A stretch of DNA of 64,000 bases from Thraustochytrium sp. TN22 (lineage: Eukaryota; Sar; Bigyra; Thraustochytrida; Thraustochytriidae): contig JABLUY010000109.1 of NCBI GenBank assembly GCA_013306675.1, positions 51,738 to 115,737 of the forward strand, read 5' to 3'. The notes under the pieces are model-generated. The model had not been told where the DNA came from. It saw nothing but the letters and a program-made list of their open reading frames with translations, and did not search any database. Position numbers and translations under genes: made by a program. Positions 37,369-49,092 of the stretch are shown piece after piece. The stretch's first letter is position 1. Each line of letters begins with the position of its first letter.

Positions 37369-40300
37369 ATGAAGGAGCTGGATGCGCTGCAGTTTTACCT
37401 GCCGGCGGTGGTGGCGCAGCACATTGCAAGGTGCCCGCGCGACACGGACGGGCCGTGGCGACCGCCGACGCAGAACTACGACAACATCGTGTGTCTGTTT
37501 GCGGACGTGAGCGGGTTCACGTCGCTGACGGAGAGGCTGTGCGAGCTGGGCCCGGACGGACTGGAGGAGCTGTCGGCGAACCTGAACAAGTTCGTGACGC
37601 AGATCGTCAAGACGGTGAGCAAAAGTGGCGGCGACGTGCTCAAGTTTGCCGGTGACGCGGTGATCGCGCTCTGGCCGGAGCCAGAGCGCGATGACATGAA
37701 CGAGTACACGCAGCGCGTGCAGCGCGCGGTGCAGTGCGCCGTGGACATCCAGCTGCGGCTGTACAAGTTCAACTTTAGCGTGTACGAAAAGGACACGGAG
37801 TTCCGCGACATCGAGACGCTCCCGGATGGGACGCTGGCGCCGCGCGAGAAGTTCGACCTGCAGGCGAAGCTGGGGCTCGGATCAGGCGACCTGAGCATTA
37901 TGCACCTGGGCGGCCACGGCGACCTGATCCAGCGCGAGCGCTTCGAGTACGTGGCGCTCGGGTCGGCGCTCATGGAGGCCATCGACAGCGAGAACTCGGC
38001 GCACCCCGGCGAGGTCGTGGTGAGCGCCGACGTCTGGTCCATGGTGGGCGACCTCTTCGTGCCAGAGAAGAAGCTGCCGAACGGCCGCGTCATCGTCAAG
38101 GAGTGGCGCAACGACCGCCGCGTGCCGTGGAAGACGTACGAGCGGTCCCTCCAGGAGAACGCCGAGACGGAGCGCAAGCTGTGGAAGTATGTGCCCAATG
38201 CCGTCATGCCGTACCTGCTGGAGACCAACGACGAGTTCTGGGCGCCTGAGCTGCGCACCGTCACCACGCTCTTCTTCAACCTCGGCATCAACATCCCGGA
38301 GCTCAACCGCGGCCAGCACTCGGAGATCCTCGCCGAGGTCTTTTACGAGATCCAGGGCGTCATTCTTGCCTACGAGGGCACCATCAACAAGTTCCTCGTC
38401 GACGACAAGGGCGCCACGCTCATCGCCGTCTTCGGCCTGCCGCCCTTTGCGCACGAGGACGACCCGCTGCGCGGCGTGCTCAGCGGCCTCAAGGTTCTTT
38501 ACAGCCTCTCGCGTCACAAGCTCCAGGGCGCCGTCGGCATCTCCACCGGACTCGCCTTTTGCGGCATCATCGGCCACGCCACCGGCAACCGCCGCGAGTA
38601 CTCGGTCATCGGCGACTCGGTCAACCTCGCCGCCCGCCTCATGCAGAACGCGCAGGACCGCAAAAGCACCATCCTTGTGGACCGCACCACCAAGCGCCGC
38701 CTCAAGGACACCTCTCTCGAGTTCATTCCGGTCGATGTCCAGGTCAAGGGTAAGCGCGACCCGGTGCAGTGCTACCAGATCAGCGCCTCCACGGCCGCGC
38801 AAGAGGCGCCCTCGTCGCAGCTCGCGCGCCTCGGCGAGCTGCGCCACTACAACGTTGTCGTCTCCGACATGCACAGGCAGAAATCGCGCAAGCGCTTCTC
38901 GCTCACACCCGTCTCCACGCCCGTGGAGATGCGCGCCCTCGAGGCGGAGCAGGTGCACCGCCTCAATGACACGAGCCGCTTCTTCCAGCGCAAGCTCCTC
39001 AAGGCGCGCGCGCACGCGGCGCACGTCAACGCCGCCAGTGCTGGCGCCGCCTCGGCGCAGGAGCAGCAGGAGCAGCAGCACCAAGCGGACCTCATCAGCG
39101 CCAACCGCAGCTTTCAGGCTTCCCGGGGTAGCGCCGGCCGCGGCCGCGGGGGCGGCCGCGGCGGCAGCAGCCCCGCCAAGTACGACGACCAGGCCGACGC
39201 CGCTGCTGACGACGATGGCATCGTCGGCGCCGAGGACGTCAAGCTCGCGCGCGTGCGCTACCGCAACAGGACCGAGGAGGTCGAGACCACCATTCCGTAC
39301 ACCGAGGGCCGCATGCAGACCGTGCTGGATCTCACCGAGGCCGCCATCGCGCGCCTCATCAACAAGGGCTTTATCGATTCCGAGGCCTCCGACCCGGCCT
39401 TTTACGAGCTCCTGCTCGTGCGCGATGCCGAGCGCTCCACGCTGCAGCCCGAGCGCCGCCTCGACACGTTGCCCTTTTCCAGCACCGAGATCCTCAGCAT
39501 GATCCTCATCAAGTTCGAGTCACGCCGCGAGATGGCGCCCTTGCAGGACGGGCCTGACGTGCACGGCTCCGAGTTTATTCGCGATCGCCTCGTCGCGCTG
39601 CAGGAGGACGTCTTCGCCGGCAACGGCGCGCGCATCGTGCTGCTCGACGGCGACCACGGCGTCGGCAAGACGCATCTCGTCGAGAACTTCCTCCTGAGCA
39701 CCGACGGCGCCGTCTACGAAGAGGGCGAGGCCGTTTTTGCCTACGCGCGAGGCAACCCCTTCGAGACTGGCCGCCAGGCGCGCCCCTTCTCGGTCTGGTC
39801 GCAGCTCCTCGACGAGCTCATGGAGCTCCCCGAGGCCGAGGCCGGCAAGACCTCGCGCGAAGACACGATCCGCAGCGCCATCAAGACCGCGCGCCGTATC
39901 TTCGGCGTCGCCACGGTTCCCATCACCATCGAGGCCAACCTGCACCTGCTCAACCGCATCATCCACACGCGCTTTCCGGGCGCCGCTCTCGAGGCCGACG
40001 ACGACGAGACCACCGCCACCGACGAGGTTGCGCCTGTGCTCGAGGCGCGCACCTCCTCACTCGGCGGGGGCTTCGGCTTCCGCAGCGCCGCCGCCGCTGC
40101 TGGCTCGGCCGCTGCCAAGCACACCAAGAAGACGCGCGGCCTCGCCAAGTCCAAGACCGTCACGGGCCCGGACGGCAAGCCCACGCGCGTGCGCGCGCTG
40201 GGCGTGCTCTGGGGCGCGAACGACGGAGCCGAGGAGGCCGTCCTCGATGACGGCGGTCCGCCCGCTGGCACCGCCGCGCTCACGGTGCGCGCCGCCCGCG

Positions 40301-42756
40301 CCGGGAGCTCTGCCGCGCCACCCGGCGCCGGCGGCAAGTCTTCCTTCCGCTCGTCGCTCATCCGCCGCCTCTCACGCAGGTCCATCGCGGCGCGCATGTC
40401 GGGCGTCGACGCCTTCGTCACGGACCCTGACTACCGCACGCTCATCAGCATTCTGGCGGCCGTGCTGGGCGGTCTCGCCACGCGCATCCCGCTCATTATC
40501 GTGGTGGACGAGAGCCAGTACCTGGACACTTTCTCGCTGCTCGTCTTTGAGGAGCTCGCCGACAAGTGGACCAAGAGCAACATGTTCATCGTGCTCATGC
40601 GCCGCCTCACCCGCATCGAGCGTTCCGTCCTGCTGCAGACTGGCAGCGCGCTCAGGGTCGCGCCGAACAACCGCGTCTCCATGTTTCGCCCGACGCCCAT
40701 CAAGATGCAGGCCACACTCAAGTCCCACCTACAGGCGCGCACCTCGCAAGCGGACGAGCTCGAGACCGCTTCGCTTCTGCACGAGCGCATCAAGGCCATG
40801 AAGAGCGTCGAGCACCTCGAGCTAGTCGCCCGCGCGCACAACACCTTTGACATCGTCTGCAACTTCGCCAACGTCGAGCGCGCGCCCGAGTCTCTCATCG
40901 ACTTCCTCCGCGCCAAGACCAAGGGCAACCCGCTCTACATCGTCGACGCTGTCAGCCACTACATCGACATCGGCCTGCTCGAGCGCCACAACTCGCCGGA
41001 GCGCGAGCTCGTCTTCCCCGACGAGGAGTTTGACCGCCTCAACAACATCCACTCCGTGCCCATTCCGCTGCACGTTGAGGCCATCGTCGGCTCGCTCATC
41101 GACAAGATGACGCTCGTCCAGCAGCTCATCATCAAGGTCGCCGCCATCATCGGTGACGTTTTCACGCGCAGCCTCGTGCGCGAGATCTTCCCCGTGCAGG
41201 AGTTCAAGGACGAAGTCGTCAACGAGGGCTTCCAGGAGCTCATCGACTCGGGCGTCATCATCTATGAGCGCCGCGACCAGGCCATTGGCGAGAGCGACGT
41301 CGAGAAGGACCAGGTCAGCCACCGCTTCGAATCCGGCTGGATGGTCGAGATTCTGCGCCACCGCATGCTCAACAAGCAGAAGATGAAGCTCAACATGAAG
41401 AAGAAGCGCTTCCAGCAGAGCTGGGACGACCAGCAGAAGCGCAACGCTTTGCGCGCAGCCAAGGGCAAGCTCGAGATCCAGTACCAGGGCTTCTTGCAGA
41501 TCCGCAAGGAGAACGCGCGCAACATCATGAACCCGTGGAAGCCGCGCTGGTGCCATTTGCAGGGCCGCGAGCTCATCCAGTATCACGACCAGGACGAGGC
41601 CAAGCGCCTTGAGGTCATCATCCTCGAGGGCTCCTCTGAGGTCTCCATTGACCCGGTGGGCTACTTTGGCTTCGAGGGCAAGCTCGCCTCCGGCAACGGC
41701 CCGGCCTCTCTCTTCTGCTTCACCATCCGCACCAGTCGCTGGGAGAAAAAGGGCAAGATCCGCGGCGACGCGCGCACCTTCACGCTCGGCTGCGAGAACG
41801 AGGACGAGCGCGTCCAGTGGGTCTTCAAGGTGCAGTACCAGATCGACCTCCTGCGCATCCAGGAGGAGGACGACCATCACCCCAGCGATAGCGGCAGCGA
41901 GGCTGCCCCGCACCGCGAGCTGCCCACCATGCGCAGCAAGCAGTTCTCCATCCACGAGGAGGTCGACTTCGAGAATGAGGCCCCGCTTCTCGACGATGAG
42001 CCCGGCCCGCCCTCCGAAATCGCTCCCGAACCGGTCGGCCGCGGGCGCCACAAGGGCAACGTCCTCAAGGCCGTCTTTAGCGCCGCGGCGCGCAGCTCCG
42101 ACGCCGGCTTGCTCCATGGCAAGAAGCACCGCGGCTCCAAGAAGAAGTCCGGTGCCGCCGCCGCCGCTGCTGCGCAGTCGGGCACGGACATCCGCTGGGG
42201 TCTCGAGATCAGCCACATGTCCATGGAGGACTGGAGTACGATTACCGTTCAGGAGCACCTTGCACTCTTCTGGGCAGAGATGGAGGCTCCCAATGGGTCC
42301 CGCGTCGCGCCCGCCATTCCCAACCACGACTACAACATGTACCTCGACTTCCCCAAGCTCGCGCTCGTCTCCCGCAACTCGCTCGGCCAGATTGACGGCT
42401 ACCTGCTCGGCAAGACGCGCACGCGAAACCAGCGCACGCTTGAGGGCGTCATTCACGCCTGTGCCGTGCTGCCCTGGGCGCGCCGCGCGCACGTCGGTAC
42501 CAAGCTCTTCACGCAGTTCTTCGTCTTTTGCCGCACCCTCGGCTGCCGCCACGTTCGCTGCGAGGTCAACCGCGACCTCCTCGTCCCCATTGCCTTTTTG
42601 CGCTCGCTCGGCTTCGAAGAGGACGAGCGCCACGAGCAGCTCGTCGGTCGCCTCGCCAAAGACGCCAGGATCCTCGCCTTCAAGAAGGACCTCGACGCCA
42701 GCGACGATGACGAGGACCTCGAGTTTGTCAACCCCATGCACGAGGGCAGGCGTTAG
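37369..42756 (+). CDS. Soluble-adenylyl-cyclase-type protein fused to PH and GNAT-like domains
   Basis: The protein has 1795 residues. The C1 class III cyclase domain (about 36-210) has metal Asp46 in LFADVSGFTSL and Asp96 in LKFAGDAVIALW, with Lys92. The C2 domain (about 290-475) has FFNLGIN where a metal Asp would sit, INKFLVDDKG, GIIGH and SVNLAAR. This C1/C2 arrangement matches mammalian soluble adenylyl cyclase (ADCY10), where C1 holds the metal Asps and C2 supplies Asn/Arg. An ATPase region follows, with P-loop GDHGVGKT near 763 and Walker B LIIVVDESQYLD near 1041. A PH domain spans about 1368-1500 (GFLQIRKENARN, KPRWCHLQG). Residues about 1605-1775 match a GNAT fold (GVIHACAVLPWARRAHVGTK, IAFLRSLGFEED). 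Family knowledge: sAC makes cAMP and responds to bicarbonate and calcium. PH and GNAT additions are not part of ADCY10. Acetyl-CoA binding and the acetyl acceptor are inference. Confidence 0.9.
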   Translation: MKELDALQFYLPAVVAQHIARCPRDTDGPWRPPTQNYDNIVCLFADVSGFTSLTERLCELGPDGLEELSANLNKFVTQIVKTVSKSGGDVLKFAGDAVIALWPEPERDDMNEYTQRVQRAVQCAVDIQLRLYKFNFSVYEKDTEFRDIETLPDGTLAPREKFDLQAKLGLGSGDLSIMHLGGHGDLIQRERFEYVALGSALMEAIDSENSAHPGEVVVSADVWSMVGDLFVPEKKLPNGRVIVKEWRNDRRVPWKTYERSLQENAETERKLWKYVPNAVMPYLLETNDEFWAPELRTVTTLFFNLGINIPELNRGQHSEILAEVFYEIQGVILAYEGTINKFLVDDKGATLIAVFGLPPFAHEDDPLRGVLSGLKVLYSLSRHKLQGAVGISTGLAFCGIIGHATGNRREYSVIGDSVNLAARLMQNAQDRKSTILVDRTTKRRLKDTSLEFIPVDVQVKGKRDPVQCYQISASTAAQEAPSSQLARLGELRHYNVVVSDMHRQKSRKRFSLTPVSTPVEMRALEAEQVHRLNDTSRFFQRKLLKARAHAAHVNAASAGAASAQEQQEQQHQADLISANRSFQASRGSAGRGRGGGRGGSSPAKYDDQADAAADDDGIVGAEDVKLARVRYRNRTEEVETTIPYTEGRMQTVLDLTEAAIARLINKGFIDSEASDPAFYELLLVRDAERSTLQPERRLDTLPFSSTEILSMILIKFESRREMAPLQDGPDVHGSEFIRDRLVALQEDVFAGNGARIVLLDGDHGVGKTHLVENFLLSTDGAVYEEGEAVFAYARGNPFETGRQARPFSVWSQLLDELMELPEAEAGKTSREDTIRSAIKTARRIFGVATVPITIEANLHLLNRIIHTRFPGAALEADDDETTATDEVAPVLEARTSSLGGGFGFRSAAAAAGSAAAKHTKKTRGLAKSKTVTGPDGKPTRVRALGVLWGANDGAEEAVLDDGGPPAGTAALTVRAARAGSSAAPPGAGGKSSFRSSLIRRLSRRSIAARMSGVDAFVTDPDYRTLISILAAVLGGLATRIPLIIVVDESQYLDTFSLLVFEELADKWTKSNMFIVLMRRLTRIERSVLLQTGSALRVAPNNRVSMFRPTPIKMQATLKSHLQARTSQADELETASLLHERIKAMKSVEHLELVARAHNTFDIVCNFANVERAPESLIDFLRAKTKGNPLYIVDAVSHYIDIGLLERHNSPERELVFPDEEFDRLNNIHSVPIPLHVEAIVGSLIDKMTLVQQLIIKVAAIIGDVFTRSLVREIFPVQEFKDEVVNEGFQELIDSGVIIYERRDQAIGESDVEKDQVSHRFESGWMVEILRHRMLNKQKMKLNMKKKRFQQSWDDQQKRNALRAAKGKLEIQYQGFLQIRKENARNIMNPWKPRWCHLQGRELIQYHDQDEAKRLEVIILEGSSEVSIDPVGYFGFEGKLASGNGPASLFCFTIRTSRWEKKGKIRGDARTFTLGCENEDERVQWVFKVQYQIDLLRIQEEDDHHPSDSGSEAAPHRELPTMRSKQFSIHEEVDFENEAPLLDDEPGPPSEIAPEPVGRGRHKGNVLKAVFSAAARSSDAGLLHGKKHRGSKKKSGAAAAAAAQSGTDIRWGLEISHMSMEDWSTITVQEHLALFWAEMEAPNGSRVAPAIPNHDYNMYLDFPKLALVSRNSLGQIDGYLLGKTRTRNQRTLEGVIHACAVLPWARRAHVGTKLFTQFFVFCRTLGCRHVRCEVNRDLLVPIAFLRSLGFEEDERHEQLVGRLAKDARILAFKKDLDASDDDEDLEFVNPMHEGRR

Positions 42757-42890
42757 GCAAGGACGAGCGCCGCGAGCAGCTCGTTGGCCGTCTCGCCAAG
42801 GACGCCAGACTCTCTGCCTTCAAGAAGGATCTCCTCGCCGGCAACGACGACGAGGATCTCGGGATTGTGAACCCCCATGCACCAAAGCGA
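42622..42890 (+). repeat. Tandem duplication of the cyclase gene 3' end (period 140 bp)
   Basis: GACGAGCGCC-CGAGCAGCTCGT begins at 42622 inside the gene and again at 42762, just past the stop. About 120 bp align with roughly 15-20% differences, including AAGAAGGA and GTGAACCCCCATGCAC matching the gene's last codons. Copy 2 is out of use behind the stop and is a decayed remnant. Confidence 0.93.
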
Positions 42891-43249: not shown

Positions 43250-46200
43250 TCACGCGAATGGTCTCTCCCACACGGACTCGCCCGTGGCATGATTGTAGAA
43301 ATACGCCAATCCTTGGGCGTCATCCCAAAACTCTTCCCAACCGGCAGGAAGGGCGCTCGATTCCTCTGCAGCGGCAGAGACCTGGCCCATCTCCTTGGCC
43401 TGCGTCCTTGCGGAAGCAGCAGGAGCAGCAGCAGCCGTGGGCATGTCACGAAGCGACGCCAGCAGATCTTCTGCGTCGCCCTCTTTCTCGTTTGCCATGT
43501 CTTCAGAAAGACGACGACGCGTTGCGAGGCGAGAGATGCCAGAAAACTTGCGCCGCAAGCGCTCCTGCGTGACTGGGTCGATGTAGTCGTCGCGCTTCTC
43601 GGCGATAAAGTCCATGGTGGTTGCCATGACTTGGCCAAGCTTGCCACCCACCTTCTCTTGAAGCGCAGCGCGGTCCGTGCGGCTTGCCTTGACGATGCCC
43701 TCCTGCGCCAAATTGAGACGCCCGAGCGTGAAGGCAGCCGTTTCCAGCGACGGCTCGCCCACGTAGGGGGCATCCAAATAAACGCGAAGCGTGCATGCCT
43801 GGAAACCCTTGGGCGCGGCCTTCTTCTTCTTTTTGATGTTCGCGTTTTTGCTCGCGTCGTCATCGTCATCGTCACCAGCCTTGTCCTTGTCCTTGTCCCT
43901 GTCCTTGTCCTTGACCTTTTTCTTCCTCTTCTTCTTCTTGTTGTTGGACTTCTCACCGGCGCTGCCCTTGTCGTCTGTGACTGCCCAAGGGTCCACCTCC
44001 TGGCGCTTGCGGAGTTTCTCCTCCCTGAGCTTCGCGACGGTGTCTTCCGGCTTGCCCTCGTCGACATTTGGGTCTCGCTCGCCCACCCGCTTGACGAGGA
44101 AGTGCTGCCGGTCAAGGCGGATGCAGTCGCCGTCGCTCACGAGTGCACGCCACTCTTCCAGCACATCGATGAAGTAAACCTCCTCCGCCTCGTCCTCCTC
44201 CTTGTTCATCTCTTCGTCGTCATCGCCAGTGTCTCTGTGTTCACCGTTGCCCTTCTCGCTCAGCCTGGGGATCTTGACAGGGCCTGGGAGGCGGTCTCCG
44301 TGCGGCAGTGCCACGCCCGCAGCGACGGCAGCGCGGCCCAGTGCAGTTCCCTTCCAACCCATGCGCTTGCGCTCCTTGGTCTCCTCGTCGTCCGTCTCAA
44401 AGATGGGCGCTGCGCCCACGAGCGCCTTGAGTCGATTGGTAAGTTTCTTGCGCTCCGCCATGTCGTGCTTGACGAGGATCCAGTGGTCACGCTGGCGACG
44501 GCGCTCGGCACGCAGCATCTCCTTGCCCACGGCTCGACCCTTGCGGCCGCGGTAGACGGCCTGCAGCCTGAGAGCGGCCGTCTCCATGGCGTCCACCTCG
44601 GCCTGCTTCTTGGCAGCCTTGAGGCGTTCCGCCTCGGCCGCCTGGCGCTTCTTGCGCCGTACGGCGTCCTCACGCTTGGCGAGAGCTACCGAGTAGTACG
44701 GGAGCGGCCGGAAGTTGTGCAGGCGCCGGTTGCCCTTGCGGTGCAGGCCCTTGAGGCAGCGTGCGCAGAGATCGTCGCCGCACTCCTCGCAGCGCCAGCG
44801 CACGGCACGCGCCTCGCAGTCCACGCACACCTTGACCTTGGGCTCCCACTTGTGCCGGGACATGGCGGCTTGCTCCTCGGAGGGCTCCTCGCACACCGGC
44901 TCGTCCTGCCACGGCGGCGCCACGAAGTGCACCATCTCGAAGCACGTACAGCAGAAGCCGCGGCGGCACGTCGTGCACATGCGGGTCGTGGCCTGGAAGC
45001 TGCACTCCGTGCACAGCTCCACGGGCTCCGACGTGTGCGCGGCGGCCTCGCCGTGATGCTCCTGGCGATGGCAGTCCGCGCAGAACGGGTCGGCACAGTC
45101 CAGGCATTGGACGATCGCTGGCTCGCTGCGACACCGGCCGCACTTGACGACGAACTCGTCGTCCTTCTGCGGCATGACGATGCTCACTTCGGGCTCAAGC
45201 GACCCGAGCAACTTTGGCTTGGTCCACGAACTCTCGTCCGTCTGCGTGTTGTACCAGTACGGATCGCCAGTCTCGGCGTCGATGCACTTTTGCACGCACC
45301 TGCGCATGAGCGCGCGGACGGCCTTGCGGGTCGCGTGCATGCGCCAGACGGCCTGGATGCGCACACTGGCCTCGCGGCGCCGCTTGGCCTCTTGCTCGCG
45401 GGCGCGCTGCTCTCGCACGCGGTCTAGCACGCTTCGGCTCGCCACGCCGCGGAAGCGTCTCTGCACCATGACGGCGGCCCACTCCATGCGCGCCTTGGCC
45501 CTCTGCTGCAACGCATCGCGGTGCGCAGCTGCAAAGTCGGCGCGCCACACGTGTTCGTGCAGGACGCGGAGCGCCAAACCGCGGCGACCGCGGTGCCGAC
45601 GGTACGCGAAGCTCGAGACGGCCTCCTCGCGGATGGCCACCTCGGCGGCGCGATCTTGCTCCTTGCGCGCCTGGCGCTGCGCACGCGCCTCCTCCGGGCT
45701 CTGCGCTGGTCCACGTCGAGCCGCCTTGTCCTCGGCGGCGCGCTCCACCAGTACGCGCTCCTTGTACTCGCGCACACGCGCCTCAGTGGCCTCGTCCACG
45801 TAAAGGTGCATGGCGAGCAGCACGAGCGCGTCCCTGAACTCCGGAAAGCCTAGCATGCGGCTGTCCGCCTTCTTGGCCCTGGCGAAGATCAGGTCCACCG
45901 TCTGCCGGGTGACCTGGCCCAGGCCGGGCGCCGTGGCCACCATCTTGGCGAAACGCTCGCCCGAGAGCTGCGCCTGCGGCTCGGCCAGCGCCACGAAGAG
46001 GGCGCGCAGCTCGCCGCCGCCCTTGGCGCTGTTCAAGAAGCCTGCGTGTAGCAGCAGCCGGTAGCCCTCGGCCTGGCGCGCCAGCAGCGTCTCGATGGCG
46101 CCCTGCTGGCGCAGCTCGTACCAGGTGCGCTCCTGCTCCAGGCGCTCGCGGTACCGCTTGCGCCACAGGTAGCGGCCCACCGCGCGCTGCACGACGAGCG

Positions 46201-48631
46201 CCGCCGCCGTCTGCACGCGGCGCTCCTCGCGGTACAGGGCCACCATGGCGCGCGCGAGACGGCCGCGCCACCGCCGCTGCACGCGGCAGGCCGCCTTGTG
46301 GCGCTCCAGCACCAGCATGAAGTGCCTGCGCCCGAGCCGCGCACGGTACTTGGCCTGGAGGAGGGCCGCGGCGCGGTCCCGCGCCAGGTTCTCCAGGCGC
46401 TGCCGCTCGCGCCTGCCGCGCCAGCGCGCCTGCAGCTTGAGCGCCGCAGCGCGGACCTGGTCGCGCTGCAGCTTGCTGACCGCGTGCGCCTGCGCCGCGC
46501 GCCTGCGTCGTACGCGTCGCCGCGCGCGCTGGCCACGCCAGACCTTTTGGATGCGCAGCGCAGCGCGCTGCCGCCGCGACTGCATGAAGGGGTCCACTTG
46601 CTTGCGCACCGCGTGCAGCACCCTGCGATTCTGCGTGAGGTTGATGGTGCGGCCCAGCACCTCCACGGTGCGGTCCTGCATTTTCTCCACCCGCAGCTCG
46701 TCGCGCCGGCGGCGCGCCTCCTCGGCGGCCTCGCGCATCGCGGCGAGCCGCCGTCTCACGTGCCTTGTGCGAAAGTGCTTCTGCACCATGGTGGCGGCCG
46801 CCGCCTCGCGCGCCTCCTGCTCCAGCTTGAGGGCGATGGCGCGCTTCAGCTGCATGCGAGCGCGGACGCCGCGCCAGAACGTCTGCACGCGGATTGCGGC
46901 CCGCCGCTTCATGACCGTCACCATGGACCGCGTGAACCACAGCCGCTGCAGAGACCGCCACCAAGTCTGCATGAGTGCGGCGGCGCCGATGCGCACGAGC
47001 CGCGCTTCGATCGCAGCCTGCGCCGCTGCGGCGGCGCGCTCCTTCGCCTCCACGGCCCTGATTTTGCGCAGCAGCTTGGCGTGCACGCGCGCGACGTGGC
47101 CCCTGAACACGCGCTGTACCTGCGTCGCGCAGGCCTGGCGATGCGCCTCCGCCGCGCGCAGGGCCAGCGTAATGACGCGGCTCCTGCGCGCCCGCCATGC
47201 GCACTGCACGCAGACCGCCGCGGCGAGCTCCGCGCGCAGACCCGCCAGCTCGCGCCGGGCCAGGTACGCGCGAAAGGCCCGCTGGAACGACCGCGGCGCC
47301 TCGCTGCGCATCTGCACGAGCGCGGCGAGGGACGTCTCGCGTCGCGCCAGCTGCAGGCCCCGCTGCTCGGCCCGCGCCGCCAGCTCTACGTTGCACTGTG
47401 ACCGCGCCAAGAGCCCTTGAATGCGCCGAGCCGCCGCGTGCTGCTCCTCCACGCGCAGCGCCTCGGTCGCAGCCCGCCACTTGTCCCAGCTCGGCACCAG
47501 CACGGCACGCTGGTACCGCCGTAGGATGCGGGCCAGCTTGCGCTGCAGCTTGCCATGGTCCTTGCGCGCAGCGGCCGACACGAGGTGCTTGAGCCGCTGC
47601 TCAAAGAGAGCAGTCGAGGGGACCAGTGCGGACACCTCGCGAATGAGCCCGCCGAGGCGAGCCCGGGCGGCCTCCACGGCCACCTCGGCCCCACGCAGGT
47701 CCTTGCGCATCATCTTGCCGCTCTCGTCCAGGTCCGACTCTTGGTTGCCCTTGTCAACACGTCGCTGCCGCTGACGCTGCCGCTGCCGTTGCCGCTGCCG
47801 TGGGCGCTTTCGCGGCTCCGTGGGGCGTGAGACACCCTGTGGCCCTGTGTCGGGCGGCAGCGTCACCTTGCTGAGCGCGCTCGCGCCGGCGTAAGGCTCC
47901 CCTGACCGTGGGGACGTCTCCTCCACCATGTCCAGCGCCTTGCTACGAGACTCTTGCCACAGTCGCGCGTATAGGCTGCGAGGCTGGTCCGCATCGCCTA
48001 GGTCGCGAGCGACGTCCATGCTCCCTAGACGCTCGTCCAGGGCCGCCAGGTGGGCGAGCTCCTCGGGCCCAGGCCGCGGCAGCCGGTCGATGCGCTTCCG
48101 GGTACGCGGCGTGATGGTACTCAGCACCGGCGCCTGCATCGGTGGCGCGCGGCGGACCCACTTTCGTTCAGCATTCGGGTCCACACCCATGGCGCGCGGC
48201 GCCAGCTTGCGCAGCCTCGACATGACTGCCTGTGGGCCCTCGGGCGTCAAATGGTCTTCGTCGGCGCTCTCGGCCTCTCCAACGGCGCTTGGCGGCGGGC
48301 CCTGGTTCGCGTCCACAAGTGCCGCGACGTCGCGCAGGACCTCGGCCACCTCCGGGAGCTCCCTTCGCAAGCCGCCGGCGCGCCTGGGCAGGTCCACGAA
48401 GCTGTCTTCATCGCTCAGGTCCGCCTCTGCGATCTCATCACGAGCCTTGGGTGCCTGCTCGAGCGGCGCGAGCGGTACCTCCGGCTTGTCGCTGGCCGCC
48501 TCGCCGGCGAGGTCCTTGCGCTGCCGCTTGCGGCCGTGCTCAAAGGACCGGAGTACGCGCCTCGTCGTGCCTAGCTCGTTCGCGCCGGCAGCCGCGGCCT
48601 CGGCCTTGGCCTCAACCTCGGGGCCGTCCAT
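43250..48631 (-). CDS. Giant IQ-motif protein with TPPP/p25-alpha-like segment, WW domains and B-box-type zinc fingers
   Basis: The protein has 1793 residues from the ATG at 48631. Residues about 410-1090 carry many IQ-like calmodulin-binding repeats (for example AALRIQKVWRGQRARRR, AALKLQARWRGRRERQR). Within this, about 873-945 resemble a p25-alpha/TPPP EF-hand-like unit ending IFARAKKADSRMLGFPEFRDAL. A WW-like domain lies near 1115-1140 (GDPYWYNTQTDESSWTKP). Residues about 1150-1310 hold repeated B-box-type zinc-binding units (CGRCRSEPAIVQCLDC, CTECSFQATTRMCTTC, CVDCEARAVRWRCEEC). A Lys/Asp-rich stretch is near 1560-1600, and a second WW domain closes the protein (LPAGWEEFWDD to GESVWERPF). 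Family knowledge: IQ binds calmodulin, WW binds Pro motifs, p25-alpha binds tubulin. A microtubule or axonemal scaffold is inference. Upstream in-frame codons to 48967 were excluded as CpG repeat. Confidence 0.85.
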   Translation of the reverse strand: MDGPEVEAKAEAAAAGANELGTTRRVLRSFEHGRKRQRKDLAGEAASDKPEVPLAPLEQAPKARDEIAEADLSDEDSFVDLPRRAGGLRRELPEVAEVLRDVAALVDANQGPPPSAVGEAESADEDHLTPEGPQAVMSRLRKLAPRAMGVDPNAERKWVRRAPPMQAPVLSTITPRTRKRIDRLPRPGPEELAHLAALDERLGSMDVARDLGDADQPRSLYARLWQESRSKALDMVEETSPRSGEPYAGASALSKVTLPPDTGPQGVSRPTEPRKRPRQRQRQRQRQRQRRVDKGNQESDLDESGKMMRKDLRGAEVAVEAARARLGGLIREVSALVPSTALFEQRLKHLVSAAARKDHGKLQRKLARILRRYQRAVLVPSWDKWRAATEALRVEEQHAAARRIQGLLARSQCNVELAARAEQRGLQLARRETSLAALVQMRSEAPRSFQRAFRAYLARRELAGLRAELAAAVCVQCAWRARRSRVITLALRAAEAHRQACATQVQRVFRGHVARVHAKLLRKIRAVEAKERAAAAAQAAIEARLVRIGAAALMQTWWRSLQRLWFTRSMVTVMKRRAAIRVQTFWRGVRARMQLKRAIALKLEQEAREAAAATMVQKHFRTRHVRRRLAAMREAAEEARRRRDELRVEKMQDRTVEVLGRTINLTQNRRVLHAVRKQVDPFMQSRRQRAALRIQKVWRGQRARRRVRRRRAAQAHAVSKLQRDQVRAAALKLQARWRGRRERQRLENLARDRAAALLQAKYRARLGRRHFMLVLERHKAACRVQRRWRGRLARAMVALYREERRVQTAAALVVQRAVGRYLWRKRYRERLEQERTWYELRQQGAIETLLARQAEGYRLLLHAGFLNSAKGGGELRALFVALAEPQAQLSGERFAKMVATAPGLGQVTRQTVDLIFARAKKADSRMLGFPEFRDALVLLAMHLYVDEATEARVREYKERVLVERAAEDKAARRGPAQSPEEARAQRQARKEQDRAAEVAIREEAVSSFAYRRHRGRRGLALRVLHEHVWRADFAAAHRDALQQRAKARMEWAAVMVQRRFRGVASRSVLDRVREQRAREQEAKRRREASVRIQAVWRMHATRKAVRALMRRCVQKCIDAETGDPYWYNTQTDESSWTKPKLLGSLEPEVSIVMPQKDDEFVVKCGRCRSEPAIVQCLDCADPFCADCHRQEHHGEAAAHTSEPVELCTECSFQATTRMCTTCRRGFCCTCFEMVHFVAPPWQDEPVCEEPSEEQAAMSRHKWEPKVKVCVDCEARAVRWRCEECGDDLCARCLKGLHRKGNRRLHNFRPLPYYSVALAKREDAVRRKKRQAAEAERLKAAKKQAEVDAMETAALRLQAVYRGRKGRAVGKEMLRAERRRQRDHWILVKHDMAERKKLTNRLKALVGAAPIFETDDEETKERKRMGWKGTALGRAAVAAGVALPHGDRLPGPVKIPRLSEKGNGEHRDTGDDDEEMNKEEDEAEEVYFIDVLEEWRALVSDGDCIRLDRQHFLVKRVGERDPNVDEGKPEDTVAKLREEKLRKRQEVDPWAVTDDKGSAGEKSNNKKKKRKKKVKDKDRDKDKDKAGDDDDDDASKNANIKKKKKAAPKGFQACTLRVYLDAPYVGEPSLETAAFTLGRLNLAQEGIVKASRTDRAALQEKVGGKLGQVMATTMDFIAEKRDDYIDPVTQERLRRKFSGISRLATRRRLSEDMANEKEGDAEDLLASLRDMPTAAAAPAASARTQAKEMGQVSAAAEESSALPAGWEEFWDDAQGLAYFYNHATGESVWERPFA

Positions 48632-49092
48632 GACGGCCTGTCGGCGCACGAGAGCGCGCAATGGCCTCGCGCACGCCCACCTGAACGCGCGTGCGCGCGC
48701 GCGTGCGCGCGCGCGCGCAAGTGCGGCGAGCGCGTGAGCTCCGTCAACCAGAGTCGCCGGCAACCCCGCAAGATGATGCTGCGACGAGCCGTTGTGGAGA
48801 ACACCACAAACAAGTTGGGTGTGCGAAAATTGCACTGCCAGTGCCAGTGAGCCTCTGTTGTGCAACCACGACCATGGACTTTGCCAGCTACTACACTTTG
48901 GCTGGCTGTGGACTTGCACGCGCTCTCGTCTGTATGCTGCTCTACGATCGTACAGGAGCGGGGGCACGCGCGAGCTTGATCTTTCTTTGCGTCACGGCGT
49001 GACGTAGAGCGCCGCCGCAAAAAGAAAGAGCATAGGCCCCTCCTCCTTGGCGACGTCGCGGCGGGCGTGAGGGCCGGCGAGGCGCAGAGAGG
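48632..49092. promoter_or_regulatory. Short divergent spacer between two IQ-protein genes
   Basis: These 461 bp separate the start codons of two oppositely transcribed genes that both encode IQ-motif proteins. A (GCGC)n run lies at about 48692-48720, next to the left gene. No TATA-like element stands out. A shared bidirectional promoter is inferred from the geometry. Confidence 0.45.

Follow-up and report, generated by a model that had tools for sequence, protein, structure and literature searches.

Closest described systems and the locus

Soluble adenylyl cyclase of mammals (sAC, ADCY10) carries a tandem pair of cyclase halves, C1 and C2, at its N terminus, followed by a STAND P-loop region; this layout is given in the accessible text of PMC12802110, which calls the C-terminal regulatory domains of the full-length protein predicted. 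In the CAPE proteins of Marchantia and other streptophytes, as the accessible text of PMC5159850 and PMC8115329 describes them, a class III cyclase is fused to a class I phosphodiesterase (PDE). In mycobacteria, cyclic AMP (cAMP) and a GNAT acetyltransferase are joined in one polypeptide, PatA/Rv0998, which senses cAMP via a cNMP-binding domain (accessible part of PMC4964394). Thus, cyclase–PDE fusions and cAMP-sensing GNATs are already known, while the literature searched offered no example of a GNAT-tailed protein that makes cAMP, which does not prove that none exists.

Here we describe an open frame of Thraustochytrium sp. TN22 (GenBank assembly GCA_013306675.1) that appears to encode such a protein. 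It lies at 37369–42756 of the window, the 64,000-nucleotide stretch analyzed (contig JABLUY010000109.1, positions 51,738 to 115,737); unless another contig or strand is named, all coordinates refer to the forward strand of the window. The frame combines an sAC-type cyclase pair, a STAND ATPase, a PH domain, and a GNAT domain, as read from the open frame, Pfam matches, and codon-position composition. Its product resembles mammalian ADCY10 in the N-terminal tandem C1/C2, the metal-binding aspartates, the Lys95 equivalent, the Asn and Arg of C2, and the STAND P-loop region after the cyclase, but differs in having C-terminal PH and GNAT domains, Ile at the place of Arg176, and Ser instead of Thr405. 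With CAPE it shares the union of a class III cyclase and another enzyme in one polypeptide. However, CAPE has an N-terminal PDE and a C-terminal cyclase, and no PDE was matched by Pfam in the window protein; two other frames of the same genome, on contigs C423 and C116, are closer to CAPE in joining a class III cyclase to a class I PDE, although there the PDE is C-terminal. STAND, PH, and GNAT go unmentioned in the accessible text of PMC5159850 and PMC8115329. Unlike PatA/Rv0998, the window protein should make cAMP rather than sense it, and no cNMP_binding match was found in it by Pfam at E up to 1. The YqjY-like GNATs of Bacillota (PDB 1mk4) and Naa10/Ard1/RimI share the GNAT fold with it, but they are stand-alone proteins of roughly 150–240 amino acids (aa).

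A single coding frame with four domains

The frame starts with ATG, ends with TAG, and runs unbroken through 1795 codons; no intron signs were seen in its sequence. The guanine-plus-cytosine (GC) content by codon position is 0.65/0.42/0.91 across the whole frame, and at third positions it ranges from 0.83 to 0.98 in each of the thirty 60-codon blocks, the PH–GNAT linker included. This evenness makes the linkers unlike introns or intergenic gaps. In 200 first-order Markov sequences, 64 kb each, built with the dinucleotides of the frame itself and read on one strand, the median length of the longest open run was 501 codons and no run exceeded 840, versus 1795 in the real sequence. Together, third-position GC and these controls make a single coding sequence the best reading, rather than a chance join in GC-rich DNA, and one genuine gene for a 1795-residue protein is the best explanation of the frame.

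In a Pfam search with the whole protein, matches above the curated cut-offs were obtained for Guanylate_cyc (8.5e-16, two stretches), AAA_16 (2.7e-11), PH (1.4e-9 at residues 1371–1489; 38.8 bits versus a cut-off of 25.1), and Acetyltransf_1 (7.5e-6 at residues 1673–1749). The first-pass annotation, made from the DNA sequence, had described a continuous 1795-codon frame joining an ADCY10-like double cyclase and ATPase to PH, followed by an apparent GNAT fold. The frame proved to be exactly as described, with coding-type third-position GC throughout, and the domain order was borne out by the open frame, codon GC, Pfam, alignment with ADCY10, and comparison of an AlphaFold2 (AF2) model with solved structures. 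The GNAT fold and its fusion into one frame are thus well supported by sequence and model.

The STAND-type ATPase (AAA_16), together with what we read as its C-terminal arm, occupies 39571–41388 and follows the cyclase, as in the sAC family. The best Pfam stretch is 39571–39840 (residues 735–824; 1.1e-12 when the ATPase piece was searched alone), and a Walker A motif, GDHGVGKT (39649–39672), and a Walker B motif, VVDESQ (40501–40518), can be read in the sequence. The PH domain (residues 1371–1489, 41479–41835) gave a Pfam match of 2.3e-11 when excised and searched alone. It aligns with the PH domain of the C423 frame and, weakly, with that of another frame, on contig C430. The three PH domains share 13 invariant columns including W29, K30, R32, and W123 (numbers of the first sequence), the last being the late tryptophan of the C-terminal helix. 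Lipid binding is limited to a subset of PH domains, and phosphoinositide binding is putative here; the domain probably serves to tether the protein to a membrane or a partner. Between PH and GNAT lies a low-complexity linker (41836–42192) with AF2 block means below 50. It is open and of coding character: in codons 1441–1620, the three blocks that contain it, third-position GC is 0.85–0.95 and no in-frame stop occurs.

The cyclase pair

The C1 half (37468–38040) contains D46, K92, and D96, which align with human ADCY10 D47, K95, and D99, and the C2 half (38236–38784; Pfam match proper 38512–38784) contains S412, N419, and R423, corresponding to human T405, N412, and R416. The place of human Arg176 in the alignment is presumed, as is the role of human N412. 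The best sequence matches in PDB were four ADCY10 sequences (9.6e-39 to 1.4e-38), aligned in three stretches across C1 and C2, and the next family was CyaB (5.9e-13). The catalytic set is therefore kept, with both metal aspartates (D46 and D96) and K92 in C1 and N419 and R423 in C2; all the residues named in the first-pass annotation were located, and its view that the cyclase looks active stands as a prediction from a catalytic set complete at one site. The base-recognition residue Thr405 is replaced by S412.

The column of Arg176, the bicarbonate switch, holds Ile in the window protein, and Arg occupies it in none of the six frames aligned from the same genome. The roles of D47, D99, K95, R176, T405, and R416 in human ADCY10 are described in the accessible text of PMC12250328 and PMC12867704. 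In the survey reported in the accessible part of PMC12867704, Lys95 and Arg176 were both present in 100 of 100 mammalian sACs, whereas in non-mammalian sACs, with few exceptions, a neutral residue replaces one or both; two tested non-mammalian enzymes responded to pH and not to bicarbonate. Judged by its residues, the window protein is not a mammalian-type bicarbonate-regulated sAC, since the Arg176 equivalent is absent, although the Lys is kept. Given this Ile and the survey, the cyclase is expected to be active and probably does not respond to bicarbonate.

The GNAT domain

The GNAT domain spans about residues 1609–1795 (42193–42753; Pfam match proper 42385–42615), as delimited with the AF2 model and structure comparison. 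The model of this part matches solved GNATs, with a mixed sheet and an acetyl-CoA cleft. Its best Foldseek match was YqjY (PDB 1mk4, 20% identity), which was also the best match by sequence, and the best VIA-align rows were NatA and Ard1 chains. The first-pass annotation had staked its acetyltransferase reading on a predicted GNAT fold and an acetyl-CoA pyrophosphate loop, and the model indeed came out GNAT-like. In NCBIfam, matches were limited to RimI and AAC(6'), all below cut-off.

For comparison, 35 bacterial relatives were confirmed among 131 matches of a pattern search seeded with Priestia rows; plasmid seeds were taken from four of nine matches. The first alignment comprised 30 of the 35 loci, leaving out four near copies (L082, L085, L101, L102) and one truncated locus (L107), and the second comprised 18. 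The domain is 20–27% identical to the aligned bacterial rows. The nearest matches were YqjY-like GNATs of Bacillota, within this Priestia-seeded search and without a eukaryotic protein collection. Origin of the domain by bacterial transfer was considered and, given this scope, is not claimed. Single-sequence scans with the GNAT part or the cyclase part revealed no relatives on viral contigs.

The loop itself, R1705-R-A-H1708-V-G1710, is encoded at 42481–42498 and compares with the consensus Q/R-x-x-G-x-G/A given in the accessible part of PMC4964394. The equivalent of R1705 is kept in all 30 aligned relatives, and the position of G1710 holds Gly or Ala in all 30. By our reading of the sequence, Glu1732 stands at the place of the catalytic Glu of RimI.

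Related frames in the same genome

The genome assembly comprises 37.9 Mb in 453 contigs, and matches to the window protein were found on 15 of them, including its own contig, C10. Tail domains were read by Pfam on 4 of the 14 others (C423, C116, C430, and C99); on the remaining 10, a comparison of coordinates only, with match lists that are lower bounds, revealed no PH, GNAT, or PDE match in the same frame. Lengths given for C116, C430, and C99 are those of open frames with no start chosen.

The C423 frame (loci L010, L026, and L066; 2650 aa from the first Met) contains two cyclase stretches, AAA_16 just above cut-off, PH (1.6e-10), and PDEase_I (2e-81). The C116 frame (loci L011 and L067; 2247 aa) contains two cyclase stretches and a C-terminal PDEase_I (1.5e-48). 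Both are, like the window frame, unbroken from the cyclase through the tail enzyme. The C430 frame (loci L012 and L068; 1880 aa) contains AAA_16, and no tail enzyme was found in it by Pfam; its cyclase region can be aligned with the window protein but drew no Guanylate_cyc match with an E-value of 0.01 or less. Ser stands at the place of the C1 Lys in this frame, which is perhaps a pseudo-cyclase to judge by its sequence. In the C99 frame (1994 aa), cyclase, AAA_16, and, below cut-off, TPR were found. A C2 domain was suspected after PH in C423, obtained no support from Pfam, and is not claimed.

Pairwise BLAST aligned residues 1230–1497 of C10, spanning the ATPase–PH junction, with C423 at 1.8e-15, and the ATPase–PH region with C430 in two weak pieces (1.5e-4 and 0.001). 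In a tree of six cyclase cores, C10, C423, C116, and C430 were separated from C99 and C399 with support 100/100; the branching among the four did not resolve, and C116 and C430 were long branches. Since C423 shares cyclase, ATPase, and PH with C10, these three parts were most likely joined before the two genes split. On this sequence comparison, the PH domain belongs to an inherited chassis, and the GNAT occupies the place that the PDE has in C423.

Proposed working and alternative explanations

We consider it fairly probable, from sequence and model, that the gene encodes as a single product an adenylyl cyclase that is gated by its ATPase and carries both a PH domain and an acetyltransferase tail. 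The cyclase would make cAMP at one composite C1/C2 site, and the STAND module, by analogy with other STAND proteins, would set its output via ATP/ADP exchange. PH would anchor the protein at a membrane or a partner, and the GNAT would move acetyl groups from acetyl-CoA to a nearby protein; candidates are the cyclase, effectors of cAMP, and partners at the membrane. Synthesis of cAMP and acetylation would thereby be placed at one spot. In C423, a PDE in the same slot would destroy cAMP locally and limit its spread. A tentative extension of this scheme is a modular chassis of cyclase pair, STAND ATPase, and PH with a C-terminal slot for different enzymes, PDE in the sister and acetyltransferase here; such a membrane-placed polypeptide may write both cAMP and acetylation or, in a protist that accumulates oil, translate the level of acetyl-CoA into cAMP.

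Several observations weigh against the acetyltransferase-tailed cyclase. GNAT and cyclase occur together on C10 alone, so the fusion rests on one gene, and no close copy of the window GNAT was found in the genome among 30 of 32 GNAT places compared; hence the source gene of the tail could not be shown. The AF2 input alignment was built from GNATs picked as relatives, which biases the model toward a GNAT result. Over the PH domain the model is of low confidence (block means 24–54), and this part was not used as evidence; phmmer matches of the PH domain to PDB were weak, the best being 3tfm (0.0044), followed by 5mr1 (0.016). The PH match of C430 is below cut-off (0.0013). In C116, neither AAA_16 nor PH was matched with E-values up to 0.01, and a 734-aa piece from its middle yielded no PH even at the looser limit of E = 5. 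Because of the missing ATPase and PH matches in C116, C423 is the sole frame that clearly combines the same chassis with another tail enzyme, and the case for tail exchange on the complete chassis depends on it. In the GNAT itself, Leu1744 stands, in our reading, at the place of the catalytic Tyr of RimI-type enzymes; the roles of this Tyr and of the RimI Glu are as we presume them. The fourth loop residue is His1708 instead of the consensus Gly, a departure that the first-pass annotation did not mention. Across the 30 relatives, Gly (14) and Asn (12) prevail at this position, with His in three and Gln in one. With the consensus residue in just 14 of 30, His1708 is not decisive; the loop is, by alignment, ordinary for its subgroup, and acetyltransferase catalysis is plausible.

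The same residues bear on a different role for the tail. It is possible, though we regard it as doubtful, that the GNAT is an acetyl-CoA sensor and not a working enzyme, binding acetyl-CoA or CoA, altering how active the cyclase is or where it sits, and so reporting carbon or lipid supply as cAMP. His at the fourth loop position and Leu at the Tyr place, the latter assignment partly presumed, would suit such a sensor, as would the retention of both R1705 and G1710 in the pyrophosphate loop; the genome moreover has a gene resembling a polyunsaturated-fatty-acid synthase, and acetyl-CoA supply is likely to be a central variable. On the other hand, absence of the same Gly from 16 of 30 bacterial relatives is ordinary subgroup variation among these putative enzymes, and GNATs with an atypical loop, one of them without an identified general acid, are on record (accessible part of PMC4964394).

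The other explanations concern the gene rather than its product. Transcription or splicing might stop short of the GNAT region, or translation from an internal start might yield a separate GNAT protein; mammalian ADCY10 has a truncated isoform formed by exon skipping (accessible text of PMC12802110). We consider this unlikely, as the linker has third-position GC of 0.85–0.95 in a frame without a stop, and C423 and C116 are likewise unbroken up to their tail enzymes. The frame might also be an artefact, either of a misassembled contig or of a rearrangement that joined a neighbor's GNAT to a decaying cyclase gene. A trace of such an event could be seen in an imperfect direct copy of the 3' end of the gene (42620–42735), which lies 140 nt downstream at 42760–42875, outside the frame and just past the stop codon. 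But the copy is 83% identical over 116 nt and does not look fresh: half of its 20 base differences are at third positions, and of 38 codons compared 17 differ (9 synonymously, 8 not), 30 giving the same residue. The even third-position GC along the frame and the failure to find another copy of the GNAT as a misjoin source among the places compared also make an artefact very improbable. The sequence of the copy suggests an old duplicate, possibly once translated.

Genome context and significance

Energy and carbon state are reflected in both cAMP and acetyl-CoA, which a eukaryotic protein uniting a cyclase and a GNAT would connect directly. In a thraustochytrid, the putative coupling of cAMP and acetylation, or of cAMP and acetyl-CoA, would bear on the control of oil production. 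Frames with a GNAT tail, with a PDE tail, and with no tail enzyme found form a natural domain-swap series for studying the roles of STAND and PH in sAC-like proteins.

Cyclic nucleotide signaling looks well developed in this genome, where cNMP-binding domains were matched 118 times with E-values up to 0.001, none of these matches being listed on C10. On C55 (1271 aa) and C19 (1347 aa), cNMP-binding and PH matches lie in frames of the same length, probably one frame with both domains in each case. On C45 (31931–35830), a PDE frame is followed by two frames with GNAT matches on the same strand. On C124 (29160–32300), ten ACP matches with near-identical scores, 327 bases apart, occur in one 3044-aa frame; ten tandem ACPs are, we take it, the mark of thraustochytrid polyunsaturated-fatty-acid synthase. 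Like the GC-rich DNA and the length of its uninterrupted frames, they point to a thraustochytrid genome.

Next to the gene, the downstream copy was considered as an alternative 3' exon, which is unlikely, as it is in another frame and no GT donor was seen by eye before the first copy. Further along, at 43250–48967 on the reverse strand, the gene has a convergent neighbor, a frame of 1905 aa with matches to WW, IQ, and B-box.
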